64,000 nucleotides of DNA from Agilicoccus flavus (GTDB lineage Bacteria > Actinomycetota > Actinomycetes > Actinomycetales > Dermatophilaceae), in NCBI RefSeq assembly GCF_014857905.1, contig NZ_JACYXE010000009.1, positions 124,001 to 188,000 of the forward strand, in the 5' to 3' direction. The translations under genes were made by a program, and so were the position numbers. Positions 9,901 through 63,008 of this stretch are shown piece after piece (the first letter of the stretch is position 1; the number at the start of each line of letters is the position of its first letter). The notes beneath the pieces are model-generated. The model saw only the letters and a program-made list of their open reading frames with translations, did no database searches and was not told where the DNA came from.

Positions 9901-10087
9901 CCCTCGCCTCCGACGAGCTTTGCGCGAAACGCGGATTCCTGGTCCCGGTGTGTCGTCGCACACCCACGCAGGTGGCACGATGAGCACACCGCGCTGACCG
10001 GCGTGGCAAACGGCACATCGCCTGTGCCGGCCCTTTACAACGGATCGTCCGGCACGTTCCTGCCGGTGAAGGAAGGACAACGACGTC

Positions 10088-20216: not shown

Positions 20217-20604
20217 ACACGCCCCGCGTGCTCCACGGAACTGCGACGTCGATATCTGCGCTGGTCAGGGCCTCGGCGTCGCGAAATGACCCGCGGGTAG
20301 GGGTTGACACCTGGACAGTCGTGCGGGTATCGCGCGACATAGTGCCGCCCCCCGGGGCGCCCACCACGGGTCGCCCACCGCTTCCGACCGGGGACGACGC
20401 GACGGCCCGTCGGTGGCCCCTCGCAGGTCCGCCGCGGCCCCTGCACACGTCCTCCGTCGGCCCGTCGCGGGCCTCTCCGGGACACGCCGGTGAGCGCCCC
20501 CCGGCGGCGGGTGGCCCGCCCCCCCGGCCGCTGCGACGACGCGGGGCTCACGAAGCGCGGGCCGCTCCGCGACGCAGCCGGCCCCGGGCCGGTATCCTGA
20601 CCGC
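20217..20604. other. carD/lpqE divergent intergenic region
   Basis: No gene seen in nearly 390 bases. TTGACA at 20304-20309 and TATCGC at 20328-20333 (18-base spacer) form a plausible plus-strand promoter pointing to the lipoprotein gene. TATCCT at 20593-20598 sits six bases before the lipoprotein start and could drive a leaderless transcript. Confidence 0.4.
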
Positions 20605-60459: not shown

Positions 60460-60532
60460 GGGCCTTTAGCTCAGTTGGCAGAGCAGCGGACTTTTAATCC
60501 GAAGCGCGTCGGTTCGAGCCCGACAAGGCCCA
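60460..60532 (+). tRNA. tRNA-Lys (anticodon TTT)
   Basis: A 73-nt cloverleaf: acceptor GGGCCTT/AAGGCCC, D stem GCTC/GAGC, anticodon stem GCGGA/TCCGA (one G-A mismatch at its base) with loop CTTTTAA, T arm GTCGG-TTCGAGC-CCGAC, discriminator A. CCA is not encoded, although the next bases begin CC. Confidence 0.95.
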
Positions 60533-60577
60533 CCCGCGACGGCGACCCTGGGGCATCGCCGCCGCCCCGCCACCACC

Positions 60578-60790
60578 CGTTCGGGCAGCGCAGGCCGTGT
60601 TCGTGGCCGGACGCGCGGGAGTGCATCGTGCCATGTCGGCCCCCTCGATGCCTCCCCACCGTGACCGCATTGGAAGATGCGCAGGTCAGCGAGTTGGCGC
60701 GGTCGGGCGCGGGGTGTCGAAGGGGCCGACATGGCACGACGTCCGGCGACACGGCCGTGCAGGCGCCTCGGGCCGCGGCAGTCGAACGGT
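60578..60790. repeat. Long imperfect palindrome (two inverted, diverged copies)
   Basis: The core arms CGTGCCATGTCGGCCCCCTC (from 60627) and its inverse (60717-60738) match in 21 of 22 positions. The similarity continues outward: GGCCGTGTTCGTGGCCGGACG on the left against CGGCCGTGTCGCCGGACG read backwards on the right, then GCCACCACCCGTTCGGGCAG against GCCACCGTTCGACTGCCG. It also continues inward to TGACCGCAT/ATGCGCAGGTCA at the centre near 60682. No gene is supported inside. It could fold into a hairpin RNA or be an inactive inverted-repeat element. Confidence 0.75.
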
Positions 60791-60843
60791 GGCAAGCGCC
60801 GACGCACCCGGAAGCAGGCGTGGGCGGGCCATGGGGGCCGAGG

Positions 60844-60889
60844 CGCGACCGAGGTGCGCGACCAAGACGCGACCGAGACGCGACCGAGG
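60844..60889. repeat. Short tandem repeat CGCGACC-x4
   Basis: CGCGACC occurs at 60844, 60857, 60868 and 60879 with 11-13 base spacing, each followed by (G/A)AG. Related GGCCGAGGC units continue at 60940-60965. Function unknown. Confidence 0.6.
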
Positions 60890-60993
60890 CGGCCGCAAAC
60901 CTCAGCGCGCAGTGAACGCGATTTCATATCCTTCGTGGCCGAGGCGCGGCCGAGCCGTGGCCGAGGCGAGACGTTTGAGCGCGACCGCCGCCG

Positions 60994-62529
60994 TCAGCGA
61001 GCGGGGATGGCGCGCTGCCAGTACGTGTCGAGCAGCGTGCGGGTGCCCAGGGCGCGGGGCAGGGTCGCGGCGACCCGGCCCGAGGCCGGGGCGCACGCGC
61101 CGGTCGCGTCGGCCTTCGCGCGCGTCGCGGTGAGGGCGACGGCGTGCGCGGACTCCACGGGGACGAGCCGCCAGCAGCCGGGCTTCTCCGCCATCGCCTT
61201 CCGGTCGATGTTCGCGACGACCGTCCGGCCGTTCGGCGACACGGCCACCTTCCACAGCGGCAGCTGATTCGCCGCCACGGCCGCCGGCGCGGCGGTCCGG
61301 AACGGCGGCGCCACCTGGATCCACGAGGCGGGCGCGACGGCCGACACGACGACGCGGGCGCGACTACCCCGCACCCCGAACAACCACGCCGGCGCCGTCA
61401 CCGGGCCGGCGGTCGTCTCCAACGCGATGCGCGTGGGCGTGGGGCCGGTGAGGCCCACGGCGCGGCACGTCGGGCACGGCGCCGAGGTCGCCTGGGCGAG
61501 CTGCGCGACCGCCGCCGCGGGCGTCATCAGCGCCGGGCGCACCGCACGCCGCCCCGGGCCGGTCACGACCCCGCTCGCGGCCCGCGTCGCGGAGACCCCA
61601 GAACCGAAGACCTTGCCCGCCCGGACCGCACGCTGCACCTGGGCCGCCCCGGCCCCGACGACCTGCACGGGCGTCGACGCCACGTTCTCCCCCAGCGGCG
61701 CCGTCGCGACGAGCGCGCCGCCCCCGCCCGCGGTATACAGGCGCTCGAACGCGGCGACCAGGCCTCGCGCCCGCACACTCGGCGGCCCCGCCGCGACGGT
61801 GACGGGCGTGGTCGGAGCGGTGACGGGCGTGGCCGCGGGGGGCGGCGACGGCCGAGCGGACGGCTGCGCCGCCGACGGAGCCGGGCTGCTCACCGAGGGC
61901 TGCGCCGACGGCAAGGCGCCACCGGGCGAGGCCGACGACGCGGGGGACGAGGCGGAGGCGACCGAGGGCGTCGACGGCGGCGCTGCGGCGTCGGGGGCAG
62001 GTGCGTCAGGACGCGTCAGCGCGTAGGCGCCCCCCGCCACGGCCAGGGCGAGGACGCCGGCGGTGGCCGCGCGGGTCGTCGCGACGCGGCGCTCCCGGCG
62101 GCGACGTTCGCGCCGCTCGTGGCGAGTGGGGGCGACGAGCCCGTCGCCATCCGACCCGGCGACGGGCAGCGCGGCGGTGTCGTCCGCGACGAGGTGGACA
62201 CCGGGGCCATCGGCCGTGGCGCGGTCGTGAGCGCCGTCCGTGGCGACGCGGCCGTGGCCCTGCGCGAGCGTGTCGGCAGGGTGGTCGTCGCTCCGCCCGG
62301 GATCGTCGGTGGCAGCGTGGCCCCGCCCGGGATCGTCGACGGCAGCCCGGTCGCGAGCACGGCCAGCGATCACATGGTCATCGCCACCCTCGAGCGCGTC
62401 GGCGGCGACGTGGCCGTCGCCCAGAGCGAGCGCGTCGGCGGCGGACGCCTGGGCGTCGTCGGCGCGCCGGGCGGCCGAACGGATGTCGACCGACGTGTCG
62501 TCGGTCGTCTGATCGACGCGTCGCGCCAT
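60994..62529 (-). CDS. Large single-pass membrane protein of unknown function
   Basis: Protein of 511 residues. The N-terminal 130 residues are Asp/Ala/His-rich with imperfect repeats of the type DDPGRGHAATDDPGRSDDHP and are cytoplasmic by charge. A basic stretch (RHERRERRRRERR) and one helix (TAGVLALAVAGGAYAL) follow. Then comes a Ser/Pro/Ala linker and an external domain (about 275-511) with CPTC and a later pair of Cys (KPGCWRLVPV, TGACAPASG), and VAVSPNGRTVVANI. I do not recognise the domain. ATG at 62529 has GGAGG six bases upstream; an earlier start at 62649 is possible. Confidence 0.75.
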   Translation of the reverse strand: MARRVDQTTDDTSVDIRSAARRADDAQASAADALALGDGHVAADALEGGDDHVIAGRARDRAAVDDPGRGHAATDDPGRSDDHPADTLAQGHGRVATDGAHDRATADGPGVHLVADDTAALPVAGSDGDGLVAPTRHERRERRRRERRVATTRAATAGVLALAVAGGAYALTRPDAPAPDAAAPPSTPSVASASSPASSASPGGALPSAQPSVSSPAPSAAQPSARPSPPPAATPVTAPTTPVTVAAGPPSVRARGLVAAFERLYTAGGGGALVATAPLGENVASTPVQVVGAGAAQVQRAVRAGKVFGSGVSATRAASGVVTGPGRRAVRPALMTPAAAVAQLAQATSAPCPTCRAVGLTGPTPTRIALETTAGPVTAPAWLFGVRGSRARVVVSAVAPASWIQVAPPFRTAAPAAVAANQLPLWKVAVSPNGRTVVANIDRKAMAEKPGCWRLVPVESAHAVALTATRAKADATGACAPASGRVAATLPRALGTRTLLDTYWQRAIPAR

Positions 62530-63008
62530 GTCCGACCTCCGTACTCTCCCGATCCCCCACTGCTCGGATGCGGGCCGACGATTCGGCCCGATCCGCGCCC
62601 GGGCGGACTCCACCTCGTTCCACATCGGACCACCGGGGCCTCGACTCAAGGGGAATGGACGGGGGTTCTCCGTGGTCGAGCACCAAACCGGTTGTCATTC
62701 ACGGTAGTTCGTGGAGGCCGGACAGTCCGGGAGGTAGCGGGCGGGCGACGAGGTCGGATCACGGCCGGGCCACGACGCCGGCCATACCGTTCGTGCCGCC
62801 ATGGCGGCAGAGATCGGTCGGATCGGCCAGGCCCACAGGGCGAAGCCCCGCCCGGCCTCGCGGTCGTGACCGGCCGGCCGTCGCTTGGCGATCTGAACTA
62901 TGCCGGTCGCGCTCCCTCCTGCCGCGCCGGCGGCATAAATCGGCCGCATCGGCATGGTCCAGGGCGCGAGATCACCGGCCCGCGGCCGACGCAACCACCC
63001 GCGCGGCG
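62530..63008. other. 480-base intergenic region with duplicated element
   Basis: No gene supported. It contains the two related units described for 62781-62968 and the promoter of the large membrane protein. CTTTAAG-like AT signals are absent. Confidence 0.35.
62781..62968. repeat. Direct repeat of a roughly 65-bp GC-rich element
   Basis: Unit 1 (about 62781-62842) begins GCCATACCGTTCGTGCCGCC and continues through GATCGGTCGGATCGGCCA to CAGGGCG. Unit 2 (about 62897-62968) begins CTATGCCGGTCGCGC, continues through AATCGGCCGCATCGGCATGG and ends CAGGGCG. The units also contain internal palindromes (TGCCGCC/GGCGGCA). Cores like CATGCCGGTCG also occur at 1177-1210. Confidence 0.6.

Follow-up and report, generated by a model that had tools for sequence, protein, structure and literature searches.

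A palindrome beside a tRNA-Lys gene of Agilicoccus flavus as a candidate copy of a dispersed inverted-repeat element with helically spaced arms

The DNA analyzed here is a stretch of 64,000 nt from the genome of Agilicoccus flavus, which is called the window below. Close to its end, the tRNA-Lys(ttt) gene identified by ARAGORN and Rfam occupies positions 60460–60534 on the plus strand, and an open frame without a Pfam match (60994–62649, minus strand) runs convergently to it. Between the frame and the tRNA gene, which lies outside the element, there is an inverted repeat of 114 bp (60626–60739), consisting of two 23-nt arms with one mismatch and of the 68 bp between them. A strict inverted-repeat scan placed the left arm (TCGTGCCATGTCGGCCCCCTCGA) at 60626–60648 on the plus strand, and the right arm, its inverted copy, at 60717–60739 on the minus strand. 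The arm sequence can be written as TCGTGCCATGTCGGCCCC-C/T-TCGA, and the two arms agree, inverted, at 22 of 23 positions. The sequence between the arms (60649–60716) contains a conserved centre, CAACTCGCTGACCTGCGCATCTTC, located at 60673–60696 on the minus strand, which was defined by a weight matrix and by the central placement of the motif TGACC[TA]GC; the spacers outside the centre have only their length conserved between copies. Shortly past the element, the region 60836–60986 contains short iterated GGCCGAGGCGCGACCGAGG-like repeats. Elsewhere in the window, an msiK RNA motif (Rfam RF01747, 58.2 bits) was found at 10022–10080 on the plus strand.

The initial annotation described a 210-bp imperfect palindrome (60578–60790) next to tRNA-Lys, with two diverged copies matching both inward and outward from a core. 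The position by the tRNA gene was correct, and the inverted repeat is real within 60626–60739. On the other hand, the flanks beyond it had a score of 10.5, which was equalled by 718 of 3000 shuffles and by 348 of 1714 control positions in the window; the extension to 60578–60790 is within the chance level. Folding of the region 60575–60795, which had been proposed as a check, was better on both strands than all 200 dinucleotide shuffles (z of −5.4 and −5.8). The further copies that were also to be looked for did not emerge from the palindrome itself. DNA searches with the arm or with the whole palindrome returned only the self-match in the own genome, and in 186 genomes of the family, with up to four places scored per genome, they gave short scattered matches and no full-length relative. 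The exact 23-mer was not found in genome_contigs. The 16-nt arm core GTGCCATGTCGGCCCC, with up to three mismatches allowed, had 114 matches in the own genome versus 99 for the reversed control, and its exact matches there were only the two arms. An alignment partner of the window copy at E ≤ 1e-6 was not found among the other elements described below. A single-copy arm, a 23-mer absent from genome_contigs and a copy without an aligning element are what would be expected of a chance palindrome or of an old single-site inverted duplication. Judged by its arm sequence, the palindrome came close to being a single copy with no conservation, which the annotation had named as an outcome that would speak against it, and which is misleading without the centre motif.

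The class to which the palindrome appears to belong became visible only after the scan for strict inverted repeats was applied to a background of 397,738 bp taken from this genome (461,738 bp together with the window), and after the spacers of the repeats were compared; a query with the palindrome would have ended at a single copy. In these 461,738 bp the window repeat ranked sixth (tied) by the strict score. Several background repeats share its geometry, with a total length of about 108–126 bp and with different arms, and the spacers of some of them have a core in common with the window element. The motif TGACC[TA]GC was central in a long inverted repeat at 4 of its 49 sites (window included), compared with 1 of 213 control-motif sites. 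Those four sites had scores of 15–23 and the others not more than 9, and one site of the five control motifs scored 13. This recurrence of centre and geometry, together with the further copies found by a profile, argues against the chance palindrome or old single-site duplication, which we consider extremely improbable.

The wider core pattern AANYCNSTGACCTGCR was found six times in the own genome, nine times in G068 and seven times in G069, versus no control match in any of the three. It was matched in 131 of the 186 family genomes, many of the matches being armless and in coding-like or other surroundings, as for example in G086, with nine matches versus one for the control. When a weight matrix derived from 90 elements, the window element being one of them, was applied to the window, the centre was the top position with a score of 26.7 (training median 26.6). 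The second-best core-like site, at 20252–20275 on the minus strand, scored 22.1 and has no long inverted arms. In another part of the own genome (L088, 17449–17538 and 10762–10821), a pair of hairpins has GTGAGATGGCGAT arms in common and lacks the core.

To search for further copies, a covariance model (R1) was used. The first alignment contained 21 of the 23 elements found, with L139 and L149 dropped beforehand, and R1 was made from 15 of these 21, which had similar spacer lengths, with a 22-pair arm helix. In its alignment 92.9% of the cells pair, compared with 28.8%–43.2% when the arms are slid, and 21 of the 22 pairs change on both sides; because the elements were preselected for complementary arms, these changes show the turnover of the arm sequence and are not proof of a helix. 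The window copy was matched at 60627–60738, with the core on the minus strand, at 94.4 bits and E of 1.4e-20, where E refers to the own genome and the window copy is itself among the training elements. At E ≤ 0.01, R1 matched 38 of the 186 family genomes, in 17 of 53 genera, and at E ≤ 1e-4 it matched 14 genomes in 7 genera; the best E values of the other 24 of the 38 genomes were between 1.3e-4 and 0.0092, and some of these could be chance matches. With up to 20 places scored per genome, there were at least 20 matches in each of G000 and G094, at least 19 in each of G068, G069, and G097, and at least 14 in G111. In the 461,738-bp sample of the own genome the profile found eight elements. Hence, while the arm of the window copy is single-copy, the class is multi-copy as judged by the centre motif and the profile. 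A class-wide search (R2) of 394 genomes drawn from the taxonomic class, which used stricter filters and scored up to 10 places per genome, gave E ≤ 1e-4 only in the own genome and in one genome of another family, where the match resembles an element by eye. This search was insensitive, as G147 was without a match there even though R1 gave it 7.2e-6. The phased inverted-repeat class seems to be largely restricted to this family. The profile was run on 73 and later on 85 loci, and the 94 matches at E ≤ 4e-8 in the 85 loci corresponded to 90 distinct elements after the removal of duplicates.

The common plan of the elements is a core, about CAACnCnCTGACCTGCRSYGAYG, placed between inverted arms. 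In the 90 elements, which were selected by and fitted to the model, at least seven of the nine letters of CTGACCTGC were present in every one. Their core reads CAACCCnCTGACCTGCRSYGAYG. Counted from the left end, it started at a distance of 48–50 nt in 87 elements, and its distance to the right end was 43–44 nt in 29, 54–56 nt in 59, and another value in 2; the arm-to-centre distance is therefore fixed on one side and stepped on the other. The elements are about 94–123 bp long with arms mostly of 20–32 nt, which agrees with MITEs in size and in the presence of terminal inverted repeats. The arms are conserved and the spacers drift, the information reaching 1.9 bits in arm columns and being 0–0.7 bits in most spacer columns (arm family A of G000, and G094). 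The column pattern of G097, where several arm families are mixed, was less clear. Species of the same genus (G094, G095, and G097) have different arm families, and several families occur side by side within one genome. In L063 and L139 (G068) each arm itself looks palindromic, of the AGTGACCTCTCG and TGTCCACTCG types, which suggests binding by a dimer.

The spacing was also measured in a way not fitted by the model, using the commonest arm of the own genome, AACCATTCGGGCCGGGTCGA, with up to three mismatches. There were 28 forward and 28 reverse matches in the own genome, versus 1 and 0 for the control. They included 26 inward-facing pairs with start-to-start distances of 77–78 bp (3 pairs), 88–89 bp (18 pairs), and 98–99 bp (5 pairs), and none between. 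Like a REPIN, such a pair is an inverted doublet of a short repeat with a variable spacer. The step of about 10.5–11 bp is about one turn of the DNA helix (assuming independent pairs, the Rayleigh p is about 6e-11 for a period of 10.5 bp); the length classes of the own genome could stem from three founder lengths, which would weaken this statistic. The lengths of 110 matches in other genomes were 94–103 and 111–115 bp, with none between, and they were spread rather than at two sharp values. In phage attP sites and intasomes, too, a core is flanked by arm sites whose distances are phased with the helix; the likeness is one of architecture only. The five own elements of the 98–99 bp subclass, which are 123 bp long, have the same arms and, by eye, another centre. 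This subclass (L081 19257–19379, L084 4383–4505, L232, L235, and L236, all in the own genome) has a centre that reads by eye roughly as GAGGGGCnAATCGAAAGnnGTTGYGCCGCAG.

The elements are dispersed repeats bounded by their arms. In within-genome pairs aligning over at least 70 bp, the homology was confined to the element and about 30 bp on either side in 248 of 256 cases. Such scattered copies, homologous only as far as the repeats, are characteristic of MITEs; the window copy has no pair of this kind. The pair identities ranged from 69% to 100% (83% over 108 bp for L271/L273), and the eight other pairs include duplications that take in the flanks, a segmental one (L207/L234) and a tandem one whose copies are 242 bp apart (L173). 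Gaps between convergent genes are preferred. In the own genome the elements were located between convergent genes at 15 of 28 classed places, with 5 more places left unclassed by gene orientation, compared with 26 of 131 background gaps (p 0.0005), and at the 81 places in five genomes there were 32 convergent, 27 tandem, 8 divergent, and 14 not classed arrangements; these gene calls, based on third-position GC, were crude. By the same calls, the elements were often shortly 3′ of stop codons. The 43 flanking proteins, which come from 24 own loci, were ordinary and unrelated, as judged from the 25 of 46 Pfam families listed for them, and no integrase was among those 25.

These locations, together with the strong predicted folding of the window copy, could suggest a transcribed RNA hairpin, acting as a long bidirectional terminator or as an mRNA-stability element between convergent genes. 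However, the arms do not behave like an RNA helix. The cells with arm mismatches comprised 58 G–T, 44 A–C, and 106 other combinations, and G–U was not preferred (p 0.20), where the partial choice of elements by strict complementarity lowers the G–T and A–C counts alike. The initial annotation's copies matching inward and outward were borne out for the arms, with their 22 of 23 positions, and not for the spacers, which in 51 elements (56 minus 5 that had no clear centre or were duplicates) had no complementarity beyond that of permuted ones (the observed value was reached in 1791 of 5000 permutations). An inner dyad was not supported either (161 of 1000 permutations), and Rfam matches were not found in the elements of the window or of 11 loci with other copies. 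As the spacers are not complementary and an inner dyad, a G–U preference, and an Rfam match are all missing, the arms are best described as inverted DNA sites, and the constraint acts at the DNA level. The stepping of the arms as in double-helical DNA points the same way, as loop-length steps of about 11 nt are without evident reason in an RNA, and phages carry the core without long arms. The RNA hairpin is thus quite improbable, and the suggestion of a structured RNA in the initial annotation was not supported.

That annotation had also considered a recombination target beside the tRNA gene. Other copies adjoin unrelated protein genes, which does not support this idea as it was stated, and the tRNA is incidental to the element. 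When 16 tRNA-Lys loci of relatives were folded, six of them on the wrong strand, of which L063 alone was refolded, a histidine phosphatase neighbour as at the window was present in L063 only, and the L063 element has the opposite orientation to the tRNA from that of the window copy. Opposite orientations were found at three of the five places that are seemingly occupied in two genomes, namely this tRNA-Lys locus, L174/L250, and L277/L284, the last of which rests on a weak protein match, and the same orientation relative to the gene was seen at L279/L261 and L203/L278. Independent insertion fits these data better than inheritance, the numbers being small.

A mobilizing enzyme and a target-site duplication were looked for as marks of mobility. 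The Y1/RAYT transposase family (PF01797) was absent from the own genome and present in 4 of the 186 family genomes, none of which was among the 38 with elements. This result largely refutes the elements being REPINs proper, that is, REP doublets moved by a RAYT (Y1/HUH) transposase. The layout is alike, with inverted conserved ends, a less conserved spacer, an extragenic position, and spacings of 71 or 110 bp for REPINs (PMC3116915), yet the conserved centre and the helical steps are not mentioned for REPINs in the available part of that report, and we regard this identity as very improbable. Among the 56 own-genome matches to the arm most common there, 52 belonged to the short pairs, and the 4 others had no recognized gene-flanking arrangement. 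The frames between two close elements included none that was transposase-like by eye. No match was found for two elements in 72,556 plasmid records, nor for one element in 50,697 phage records; in viral contigs, four of five arm patterns had no exact match, and a 17-nt window arm had four matches. The check for target-site duplications, which the initial annotation had advised, showed direct repeats to be no more frequent than in permuted flanks, as 364 and 275 of 2000 permutations reached the observed value for 18 and 26 elements, with the right flank misplaced in about 4 of the 44 rows.

That no mobile partner or target duplication was found could also be explained if the elements were domesticated by the host, as dispersed, phased pairs of sites for a chromosome-structuring or supercoil-handling factor at gene 3′ ends that are kept by selection and not by transposition, by analogy with BIMEs. 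The retention of arms while spacers drift, the preference for convergent gene pairs, and the occupation of some 3′ regions in different species are consistent with such sites. Their arms, however, vary in sequence among species of one genus and form several families per genome, the opposite orientation at three of five shared places is what independent insertion predicts, and the distribution is patchy, with 148 of the 186 family genomes having no match at E ≤ 0.01. Hence, these host sites appear unlikely.

The core is common to the elements and to actinophages. The exact 23-mer core was found in nine viral contigs, where long arms are absent. In L299 it was located between HNH endonuclease and terminase small subunit genes, in L300 it immediately precedes a terminase small subunit gene, and in L301 a marginal match to that subunit is one frame downstream of it; the genes in L303, L304, and L306 are by eye as in L299, and in L302 two frames had no Pfam match. 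In L300 (1610–1680) a 9-bp direct repeat, AACGATCAC, flanks the core, giving the appearance of a very short insert with its target duplication. A blastn search of phage records with a 41-nt stretch gave 108 records at E ≤ 10, of which 105 were from actinobacterial phages, which a GC-rich query favours, and 43 at E ≤ 1, all of them actinophages and many of them near-identical relatives or duplicate records. The core was outside annotated genes at 35 of these 43 places, and several were within 400 bp of the record end. In Gordonia phage Rosalind (L307 1350–1530), the gene-free end of the genome contains three copies of the core TGACCTGC with a period of 80 bp, and Mycobacterium phage Drake55 has the core upstream of its tyrosine integrase gene, with GTGCGAC repeats on both sides and a tRNA-like piece nearby.

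Of the 21 loci scanned, 5 have a related form, AAGCCTCTGACCTGCGG or a variant of it, near a tRNA gene, and phage-integrase genes adjoin this type of core in L104 and L101. In other genomes of the family, core-like sites of the form AAGCC(T/C)CTGACCTGC without long arms were seen (L106, L148, L149, L150, L166, L104, and L101), located beside tRNA genes, partly in what look by eye like terminator-like hairpins, and beside phage-integrase genes.

In where it occurs, the core is reminiscent of IHF sites. The IHF of mycobacteria is reported to lack sequence specificity (PMC3724605), and a protein binding the core would therefore be other than IHF. The centre may be the recognition site of a sequence-specific architectural host protein of actinobacteria, which bends or bridges DNA, and may serve like the IHF sites of enterobacteria, with the elements as minimal two-arm synapsis complexes; we hold this as a tentative and rather doubtful possibility. 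IHF-like use would account for sites by integrase and terminase genes, at phage genome ends, by tRNA genes, and at a bend in the middle of the element, while in a synapsis complex the arms would be specific to a recombinase and the centre to the host factor.

Overall, we give about an even chance to the palindrome in the window being one copy of a small non-autonomous MITE- or REPIN-like mobile element, about 100–125 bp in length, of this actinobacterial family; of the three guesses in the initial annotation, the MITE-like one is the best supported, by the dispersed class with inverted ends that was reached through the centre motif and the profile. In such an element, the inverted arms of about 22–28 bp, specific to each subfamily, would be sites for a putative recombinase or transposase acting in trans, and the conserved centre would be bound or bent by another factor. 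With a spacing of only 77–99 bp and the right helical face, the arms could then be brought into synapsis across the bent centre. We infer three things here: binding of a recombinase by the arms, bending at the centre, and mobility of the elements. Arms set in step with the helix turn, around a core that phages of related bacteria also have, suggest small mobile DNA that is bent and paired by proteins. An element that is both phased and dispersed, with a core common to actinophages, would offer a concrete handle on a putative DNA-binding protein and on a putative mobilizing enzyme, and the example of the window shows that a single-copy palindrome can belong to a large family which a palindrome-query search misses.

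To our knowledge, few small interspersed palindromic elements have been described from Actinobacteria. A published description of the class was not found in literature searches, where the core as a text string had no match, and the class is apparently undescribed so far. Cellulomonas and actinobacteria are unmentioned in the available part of a REP survey (PMC3733652). The GTAG and CGTC REPs covered there are palindromes of 20–40 bp, mostly between unidirectional and convergent genes, and the CGTC REPs also seem to be without a dedicated transposase; in the elements described here, in contrast, paired arms with about 90 bp from one to the other enclose a core. The attP sites of mycobacteriophage tyrosine integrases have arm-type sites, sometimes inverted, flanking a central region, and their arm sequences differ between related integrases (PMC3203893). 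The flanking of a centre by arm sites is alike, as is the position of the core upstream of the Drake55 integrase gene between GTGCGAC repeats, but attP is single and linked to its integrase (PMC3203893), whereas the elements are multi-copy, with no linked integrase among the families listed. REPINs are doublets of REPs that form hairpins, with common spacings of 71 and 110 bp, and they share with the elements two inverted conserved ends, a less conserved spacer, an extragenic position, and many copies (PMC3116915). The elements differ from them in having no Y1/RAYT gene in the own genome, and in their conserved central motif and helical spacing steps. The Correia/NEMIS elements of Neisseria, of about 107 and 155 bp, have terminal inverted repeats of about 24 bp, and the 155-bp form, nearly always intergenic, contains a site for the DNA-bending protein IHF (PMC2229807). 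They are alike in size range, in terminal inverted repeats, and in a bending site inside, which in the class described here would be the centre; this centre is not a known IHF site, unlike that of the 155-bp form. Correia elements also have a TA target duplication (PMC2229807), whereas here a duplication was not found and there are many end families. Taken together, in its mode of working the element is closest to REPINs and Correia elements, although neither the RAYT transposase of the former nor the target duplication of a MITE was found, and the class can be placed as a variant of the small interspersed palindromic elements, with a core common to actinophages.
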